From Flavobacterium sp. (GTDB lineage Bacteria; Bacteroidota; Bacteroidia; Flavobacteriales; Flavobacteriaceae), in the NCBI GenBank assembly GCA_002733185.1, contig NVUT01000006.1, forward strand, positions 58,782-91,199: 32,418 bases of DNA, given 5' to 3'. This document shows positions 5,825-8,338 of the stretch, in pieces (position 1 is the first letter of the stretch; every line of letters begins with the position of its first letter). The notes below the pieces were generated by a model. The model was not told where the DNA came from, searched no databases, and worked only from the letters and a program-made list of their open reading frames with translations. Position numbers and translations under genes: made by a program.

Positions 5825-6421
5825 TTATCTAAAACTTGTTGTGTTTATGGTGTTTTTATTAAAGTCAAAACGACCTTCAGTTATTTGAATAATGTCATTT
5901 GGATGTATGTCGTTTTTTAAGGTGCAATAAAAAGTGCCAGAGATAACCTCATCATCGTACCGTGTTATTATTATTTTACCTGTATTTTCTATTGAACTAT
6001 ATCCTGATGTTGGACTACCACCATTATAAATAGCACCCATATACACAATGTTAGTGTTAGCTTGACTAAAAGCGCCATCTACATGTTTAATAATGTACTC
6101 ACCAACACCCAAAGAGTCTATATTTGGTAGTTTAAAAGCGATACCACCTCTGTTTTCTACTCGGTCTATTGCCTCTATCCAATCGTAACGTATATTCAAG
6201 CCTCTTGCGGTACTATAATTAACACCAGTTGGAGCTCCCCCTAGTTGGCTACTAACCCTACTGTCTTTTGGCACCATAATTTGCCCATTAATTTTACAGC
6301 CAAAAGTATTAGCTCCTATTTTTGTTGCTTCTGGTAATGTTGGGTTGTAAGGGTCTTCTTCACGATTGCAACTGGCTTGCATCATGATAAATAAACTGAG
6401 TAGTAGGATTGTAGTTTTCAT
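5825..6421 (-). CDS. putative surface/periplasmic lipoprotein
   Basis: This 198-aa protein has a lipoprotein signal peptide MKTTILLLSLFIMMQASC, with the lipobox Cys at residue 18 followed by NREED, an acidic stretch that in Bacteroidota can mark surface export. The mature part begins with GANTFGCKINGQIMVP, a start seen in a family of Bacteroidota proteins of unknown function (DUF6252-like, from memory). Predicted beta-rich; no catalytic motif seen. It begins 5 nt after the LRR gene's stop, so the two are almost certainly co-transcribed and may work together at the cell surface. Function unknown. Confidence 0.8.
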   Translation of the reverse strand: MKTTILLLSLFIMMQASCNREEDPYNPTLPEATKIGANTFGCKINGQIMVPKDSRVSSQLGGAPTGVNYSTARGLNIRYDWIEAIDRVENRGGIAFKLPNIDSLGVGEYIIKHVDGAFSQANTNIVYMGAIYNGGSPTSGYSSIENTGKIIITRYDDEVISGTFYCTLKNDIHPNDIIQITEGRFDFNKNTINTTSFR

Positions 6422-6426
6422 ATGTC

Positions 6427-7557
6427 TTATTTTTTTAAAATTTGTTTAATGCTATAATTATTGTCTTGGTCTGTTGCTTTAATAAAATAAACGCCAGTAT
6501 TTAAAGAGGTAGTATTTATACTTTTAATGGCGGTTTGGTTGTATTTACTAATAAGTAGTTGCCCTAGTAAATTATAAACTTCAATTTTAATAATTGGCGA
6601 TTGTGATTGTATGTTTAACTTTTCGTTTACGGGGTTTGGATACACTATAAGGTTGGTTATTGTGTTTTGGGTTGTAGTTAATAGACATTTTTCGGTAAAA
6701 ATTATTGGATGTCCTACTTGGTCTTCTATAAAAGTTGCCAAGCTAGAGTTTACATCGTCTATACAAACAGTTTCTAGGTTAGGAAGGTTTGTAAAATCAC
6801 TGGTGTACGATCCACTAGTGCTTATGTTGTCATTATTTCCGTTTTTAAGATTAAGGTATGTTAATTCAGTATTATACAGTAAACTTACTGTAATTAAGTC
6901 GGTATTATTACTTAAATCAAGCTCGGTTAAATTATTATTTCTACAATGTAAAAAATTTAACAAAGGGTTATTACTTAAATCTATCTGAGTTAGTTGATTA
7001 GCTTCACAGGTTAACTTTACTAAAATAGGATTATTTGTTACATCTATATTTGTAAGCTGGTTGGCTTGTACGTATAAATATTGTAAAGCAGGGTTGTTGC
7101 TAAGATCTATAGTTGTTAGGTTGCCAAAGTTTACTTGTATTATTCTTAATTCTTCATTATTACTTACATCTATAGTGCTTAATTGGCTGCCAGAGATACT
7201 TAAACCTCTTAAAACAGAATTATTACTAATATTGATGCTTGTTAAGGGGTTTTGGTTACAAACAAGATCTAACAATGCAGTATTGTAACTTAAATCTATA
7301 TTGGCAAGCTGGTTATAACTACATTGTAGTTTATCTATGTTAACAAAAGCTTCAATACCTGTTAGGTCTGCAATTTCGCCAGGGTTTTGCGATGTTCCGT
7401 CTAGGTTTAGTGTTTCGGTTACAGCTTCTGCTTCGCTAAATTGTATTTCGCTATCATTATTGGTATCAATAATAGGGTCGTGATTTAAGAGTTTGTTTTT
7501 AAAATTTATATCGGGTATGTTTACTATTTGAGCATAACTAACTAAGTTAATCATCAC
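6427..7557 (-). CDS. leucine-rich-repeat protein with T9SS sorting domain; signal peptide out of frame
   Basis: The track ORF (376 aa) contains about ten ~21-residue LRRs of the form LTxIDLSNNPxLxxLxCxxNQ (about 55-240), a spacer, then a type A T9SS sorting domain beginning LIVYPNPVNEKLNI and ending YSIKQILKK. Such proteins are exported to the cell surface, often as adhesins. The listed start (GTG-ATG, MMINLVSYAQ) gives only the last part of a signal peptide. The true start appears to be the ATG at 7592-7594. With one A removed from the A9 run that follows it, the reading is MKKNIIHLSLLFVMINL..., a textbook signal peptide fused in frame. As sequenced, that ATG reads MKKKHYTSLFIIRDD and stops. 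The gene is therefore frameshifted, phase-variable, slippage-expressed or wrongly sequenced; full extent would be 6427-7594. Confidence 0.85.
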   Translation of the reverse strand: MMINLVSYAQIVNIPDINFKNKLLNHDPIIDTNNDSEIQFSEAEAVTETLNLDGTSQNPGEIADLTGIEAFVNIDKLQCSYNQLANIDLSYNTALLDLVCNQNPLTSINISNNSVLRGLSISGSQLSTIDVSNNEELRIIQVNFGNLTTIDLSNNPALQYLYVQANQLTNIDVTNNPILVKLTCEANQLTQIDLSNNPLLNFLHCRNNNLTELDLSNNTDLITVSLLYNTELTYLNLKNGNNDNISTSGSYTSDFTNLPNLETVCIDDVNSSLATFIEDQVGHPIIFTEKCLLTTTQNTITNLIVYPNPVNEKLNIQSQSPIIKIEVYNLLGQLLISKYNQTAIKSINTTSLNTGVYFIKATDQDNNYSIKQILKK

Positions 7558-7582
7558 GAATAATAAAGAGAGATGTATAATG

Positions 7583-7591
7583 TTTTTTTTT
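7583..7591 (-). repeat. A9 homopolymer (T9 on plus strand) in LRR signal-peptide region
   Basis: The run directly follows the ATG at 7592-7594. Eight A's would place that ATG in frame with the downstream LRR ORF; nine do not. A single-nucleotide tract at this position is a classic place for slipped-strand or transcriptional slippage. Confidence 0.8.
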
Positions 7592-7594
7592 CAT

Positions 7595-7942: not shown

Positions 7943-7976
7943 AAAAAAATGCCAACTTAAAAAAAGCTGGCATTTT
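7943..7976 (-). terminator. terminator after secG
   Basis: The stem AAAATGCCAACTT / AAGCTGGCATTTT (one A-C mismatch) has flanking A and T runs and lies 24 nt after the secG stop. It is nearly identical to the stem-loop at 2511-2542. Confidence 0.8.
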
Positions 7977-7999: not shown

Positions 8000-8338
8000 C
8001 TAGTTGTTATCTCCAGTAGTATCTTGTGTTGTTGTATCTGCTGGTGGTAATGCGTTTTCAATAGCATTTTCGTCAAATGCTTTTGAGCCAGAATTTCCAG
8101 AACCTCCCATAATTGAAATATTTGAAAGTAAAATTAATGCTAATAATAAAGTAGCCAATGTCCAAGTACTCTTATCTAAAAAGTCGGTTGTTTTTTGAAC
8201 TCCTCCTAATTGTTGAGTTCCTCCGCCACCAAACGATGAACCTAATCCGCCACCTTTAGGGTTTTGAACCATTATTACAATGATTAATAAAAATGCTACG
8301 AAAATAATTAATGCTATAAATATTGTAAACGTACTCAT
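8000..8338 (-). CDS. secG: preprotein translocase subunit SecG
   Basis: SecG is the small membrane subunit of the SecYEG channel that moves unfolded proteins across the inner membrane. The 112-aa protein has the expected two membrane helices (about 3-22 and 58-76) joined by the conserved loop MVQNPKGGGLGSSFGGGG. It has the acidic, Thr/Asp-rich C-terminal tail common in Bacteroidota. Its ATG overlaps the TGA of the upstream gene (ATGA), indicating translational coupling, and a terminator follows. It is the last gene of the miaB-to-secG run. Confidence 0.95.
   Translation of the reverse strand: MSTFTIFIALIIFVAFLLIIVIMVQNPKGGGLGSSFGGGGTQQLGGVQKTTDFLDKSTWTLATLLLALILLSNISIMGGSGNSGSKAFDENAIENALPPADTTTQDTTGDNN

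Follow-up and report, generated by a model that had tools for sequence, protein, structure and literature searches.

A nine-adenine run behind the start codon puts the signal peptide of a Flavobacterium leucine-rich repeat surface protein one base out of frame

Introduction

When the reading frame of a surface-protein gene is broken at a homopolymer directly behind its start codon, is the run a switch, a fresh mutation, or an error in the sequence? The question is raised by a 32,418-nucleotide stretch of DNA from Flavobacterium sp., called the window here (G000:C39:58782-91199), which belongs to a draft genome of 60 contigs and 2.93 Mb that is 83.7% complete. It carries a gene for a leucine-rich repeat (LRR) protein with a T9SS sorting domain, and the signal peptide of this protein is encoded in the wrong frame behind nine adenines. 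The initial annotation of the locus proposed phase variation. In AT-rich flavobacteria, however, ATG followed by a run of A is the normal beginning of a signal peptide (MKK...), and an A run at this place is therefore by itself no hint of a switch. We examined the leader, the gene behind it, its relatives and the long A tracts of the genome, and weighed the explanations against one another.

Results

All features of the locus described here lie on the minus strand. The start codon, which was placed from the sequence and from the start positions in homologues, is an ATG at 7594-7592, and it is followed by the A9 run at 7591-7583 and then by CATTATACATC. Read from this ATG, frame 0 gives MKKKHYTSLFIIRDD and ends at a TAA at 7549-7547 after 15 codons (7547-7594), where the initial annotation had also ended it. 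Removal of one A gives MKKNIIHLSLLFVMINLVSYAQIVNIPDINFK..., a protein of 388 amino acids in which the leader MKKNIIHLSLLFVMINLVSYAQ (7531-7594) is joined to the intact LRR open reading frame (ORF) with its T9SS tail; the earlier statement that one A fewer yields a complete signal peptide fused to this ORF was thus right to the base. The LRR ORF is in frame with the ATG when the run is A8 or A11, and out of frame when it is A9 or A10. The length of the homopolymer sets the reading frame of this surface-protein gene, as it does in a contingency locus, and the gene as sequenced is without an in-frame Sec signal peptide, its leader being one base out.

The codon just before the leader in the LRR frame is TGA, formed by aTGAaa. 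Because this stop stands directly ahead of the leader codons, rescue of the LRR ORF by an upstream in-frame start is ruled out. The only nearby in-frame starts are a GTG at 7557 and an ATG at 7554, both past most of the hydrophobic core. Since homologues have their signal peptide at the same place, a wrong-frame signal peptide that abuts the conserved mature start is not a product of chance.

The mature protein (6427-7530, stop codon included) starts with QIVNIPDINFK. Its leucine-rich repeats, at approximately 6859-7344, match LRR_4 (PF12799) and the solved internalin J structure 3bz5 (E 9e-40), and a T9SS type A C-terminal sorting domain follows at 6442-6645 (PF18962, E 4e-13, 49.9 bits against a curated cut-off of 27; TIGR04183, E 4.4e-13). 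Between the mature part and its orthologue in genome G006, with which it shares 88% protein identity, dN/dS is 0.15, which indicates purifying selection and places the gene under constraint until recently. Given this ratio and the intact ORF, there is no sign of decay by mutation in the mature part, and together with the domain matches they uphold the earlier view that the repeats and the sorting domain are intact and the gene is not decaying.

The LRR gene stands in a conserved neighborhood. As had been noted, a lipoprotein gene begins 5 nt downstream, with its ATG at 6421 and the LRR stop at 6427; it occupies 5825-6421 and belongs to the Riean_0653 family (NF052634). A large esterase-like gene comes next and is intact in the window. 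The G006 copy of this esterase-like gene (L053 14882-18028) is broken by several frameshifts. Upstream lies secG (8000-8338), followed by a terminator-like hairpin at 7946-7976 that is conserved in relatives and sets the LRR transcription unit apart from secG. G006 has secG, the LRR gene, the lipoprotein gene, and the esterase-like gene in the same order. In G008, and in G123, G132, G211, and G227 from four other genera, secG likewise adjoins the LRR gene, and it identifies the orthologous locus in those genera.

In-frame signal peptides were found in all six secG-linked orthologues (G006, G008, G123, G132, G211, and G227), where the longest A run is A6, and in 14 of 14 other genes of the genus with a QIVNIPD-like motif, where it is A7 at most. 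The genome of the window (G000) has 68 matches to the T9SS tail; 60 were examined, three of them cut by contig ends, leaving 57 complete genes. Leaders are in frame in 54 of these (53 by a hydropathy threshold, and L166 by eye), and no intact gene has a longer A run near its start than the in-frame A8 of L151. The other three are the LRR gene of the window, L110, which is a fragment with a frameshift outside any homopolymer, and L128. The DNA upstream of the T9SS gene in L128 (G000:C46:4085-7924) does not look native to this genome; judged by eye it resembles proteobacterial DNA, and this end is probably a chimeric contig. Among the 57, the LRR gene of the window is the only one whose leader loses its frame at an A tract. 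A comparable tract is thus neither kept in the six orthologues nor common to the paralogues and other T9SS leaders, which reach A8 at most and are in frame. The LRR-T9SS relatives of 6427-7530 form a large family in the genus, with 32 matches in G000 and up to 63 in one genome. Some members have internal stops, as in L011, or lack leaders, and the family turns over quickly in this group.

We then asked how long A tracts behave elsewhere in the genome, counting tracts and starts in a 432-kb sample (400 kb of genome plus the window). ATG followed by A6-A8 opens 28 genes of the sample, all of them in frame. The whole 2.93-Mb genome has nine sites of ATG with A9 or A10, an unremarkable count for A9; besides the LRR gene, four of them (L101, L102, L105, and L107) are genuine start codons with an in-frame continuation, and for L106 the following ATG is the most likely start. 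Nine A/T9 tracts lie in frame inside long intact ORFs of the sample. Against an order-5 Markov model of the same 432 kb, A/T runs of at least nine are depleted (25 observed, about 65 expected) and runs of at least ten more so (one observed, about 20 expected), so that tracts of this kind do not exceed, in length or in number, what the composition of the genome predicts. If A-run switching were in use, one would expect long A/T runs to be enriched, the opposite of what is seen.

In the sampled contigs of the draft, C40 and C50, N occurs about 1.2 times per kb. Patches of interleaved single Ns occur at L178 2798-2886, L175 13904-13926, L186 19356-19428, and other places, where they create frameshifts; they look like the product of joining two offset contig ends and masking the bases at which these disagreed.

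Comparison with the closest orthologue revealed a break at the leader. From the first mature codon (CAA, 7530), 30 of 30 bases are identical between the window and G006, against about 12 of 30 immediately upstream. Homology ends exactly at the signal-peptide cleavage codon (window 7530/7531, L053 13104/13105); the leaders cannot be aligned, and the upstream DNA is likewise unrelated. Eight other orthologue pairs of secreted proteins or lipoproteins were sampled, and in all eight the aligned region extends across the start codon. The position of the break suggests that a whole leader was exchanged. G006 has an extra gene of 240 amino acids between secG and the LRR gene (L053 12080-12802), which is absent from the window, with dispersed repeats of that genome nearby, and its secG-LRR interval is longer than that of G008. 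On these grounds, a replacement of the leader probably took place in the G006 lineage. A DNA search for a donor of the window leader in 19 genomes of the genus returned only the secG terminator and chance-level matches. A search for a donor of the G006 leader gave nothing but short repeats, which are dispersed and lie mostly in G006 itself.

Discussion

We favor, at roughly even chances, a frameshift of one base that arose recently in a mutable run of nine A, created a null or OFF allele, and bears no sign of an evolved switch. The locus would encode an ordinary T9SS-exported LRR surface protein, and the A run behind its start codon would have become nine long in the lineage that was sequenced, placing the signal peptide one base out. 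Ribosomes starting at 7594 would stop after 15 codons, while any protein begun at GTG 7557 or ATG 7554 would be made without a signal peptide and not be exported. We infer that the indel is real and that expression of the LRR gene was lost; the leader, intact in the shifted frame, and the dN/dS of 0.15 in the mature part mark the lesion as recent. The lesion is reversible in principle, since the homopolymer that holds it is mutable and losing one A would restore the frame. Breakage of other family members by other lesions, such as the stop in L011, speaks for an ordinary frameshift, and nothing in the sequence points to a tract that is maintained as a switch.

The extra A may instead be an artifact, the organism having A8 and an intact gene while the draft assembly, possibly through merged contigs or a strain mixture, reports A9. 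We hold this possible, though with clearly less than an even chance. The LRR gene otherwise looks fully functional, the assembly contains the merge-like interleaved-N patches, the apparent chimera of L128, and the frameshift of L110 outside any homopolymer, and the two frameshifts among 68 genes with a close G006 match both lie at such patches. The window itself is free of N, but both bases flanking it are N, and its N-free state may thus be an effect of selection and no proof of quality. On the other side, the tract shows neither N nor conflict. In addition, the in-frame A9-A10 at four other starts and nine A/T9 tracts in long intact ORFs of the sample indicate that the assembly is generally right on homopolymers, as does A6-A8 at 28 in-frame starts. 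Assembly-wide homopolymer trouble was not seen, since the other frameshifts in the G006 comparison lie at N patches. An evolved contingency locus, in which slipped-strand mispairing would switch export of the LRR protein ON (A8, A11) and OFF (A9, A10) as in vaa of Mycoplasma hominis, appears improbable to us. It would account for the vaa-like geometry and for a tract right behind the start codon of a surface-protein gene that is otherwise constrained. However, the tract is conserved in no orthologue and is not common to the paralogues, long A/T tracts are depleted in the genome, and no tract variants were seen in the single genome of the species. Where mismatch repair operates, a run of nine A is also short for a switch. 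Of the initial proposal of phase variation, the out-of-frame leader, the intact domains, and the mechanical possibility of switching by tract length therefore stand, the last by analogy with vaa; its description as a typical contingency switch does not, given orthologues without a comparable tract, the depletion of long A/T tracts, and other broken copies in the family.

Slippage of RNA polymerase or ribosomes on A9 might also give enough in-frame product for the allele to be expressed, a reading that we consider very unlikely. Its precedent is tssM1 of Citrobacter rodentium, where A11 gives about 20% frameshift product (PMC4256274); tssM1, however, is rescued by added A's, while the LRR gene needs one A lost or two gained, and its orthologues do not keep the tract. 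Homopolymer slippage in E. coli and Buchnera consists mostly of single insertions, deletions being rare in the former and a minority in the latter (PMC5574713), and in A7-A11 reporters the efficiency of insertion is at least double that of deletion (PMC6260861). The favored insertion of one A would lead to A10, which is also out of frame, and rescue of the A9 allele by slippage would thus be weak. The earlier suggestion that slippage on A9 could yield in-frame mRNA runs against this direction (PMC5574713, PMC6260861). A composite history, with a poly-A switch on the T9SS-exported LRR protein that arose recently and in this lineage only, together with a possible replacement of the whole leader, from promoter to cleavage site, by recombination in the sister species, seems to us quite unlikely. 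If it were true, leader exchange would be a second way to change the expression of T9SS-exported LRR proteins. A limited literature search found no papers that combine homopolymers, phase variation, and Flavobacteriaceae, and a true switch would accordingly add a poly-A contingency locus to a group on which that search returned none. On present evidence, the recent frameshift or a misassembly leaves one broken or mis-assembled gene, which is useful mainly as a caution.

Three known systems place the locus. The vaa adhesin gene of M. hominis likewise encodes a surface protein and carries an A8/A9 tract at its 5′ end, in frame with A8 and out of frame with A9; A8 turns vaa ON, A7 and A9 turn it OFF, and switching occurs at 1e-3 to 1e-4 (PMC524362). 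With equal geometry, a switch at the window gene would work like that of vaa. Switching of vaa has been observed in isolates (PMC524362), whereas for the window gene no length variant is known, relatives are without such a run, and long tracts are underrepresented in the genome. The tssM1 gene of C. rodentium is likewise related to secretion and intact apart from a frame break beside an A run (PMC4256274), but there the run is A11 and added A's restore the frame, while the run of the window gene is shorter and one more A gives A10, still out of frame. The third system is that of the T9SS-exported LRR proteins of Flavobacteriaceae, which have internalin-like LRRs and a PF18962/TIGR04183 tail. 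The signal peptide, the QIVNIPD-type mature start, the LRRs, and the type A sorting domain are common to them and to the window protein; the leader is one base out in the window copy, whereas the leaders of the intact homologues are in frame.
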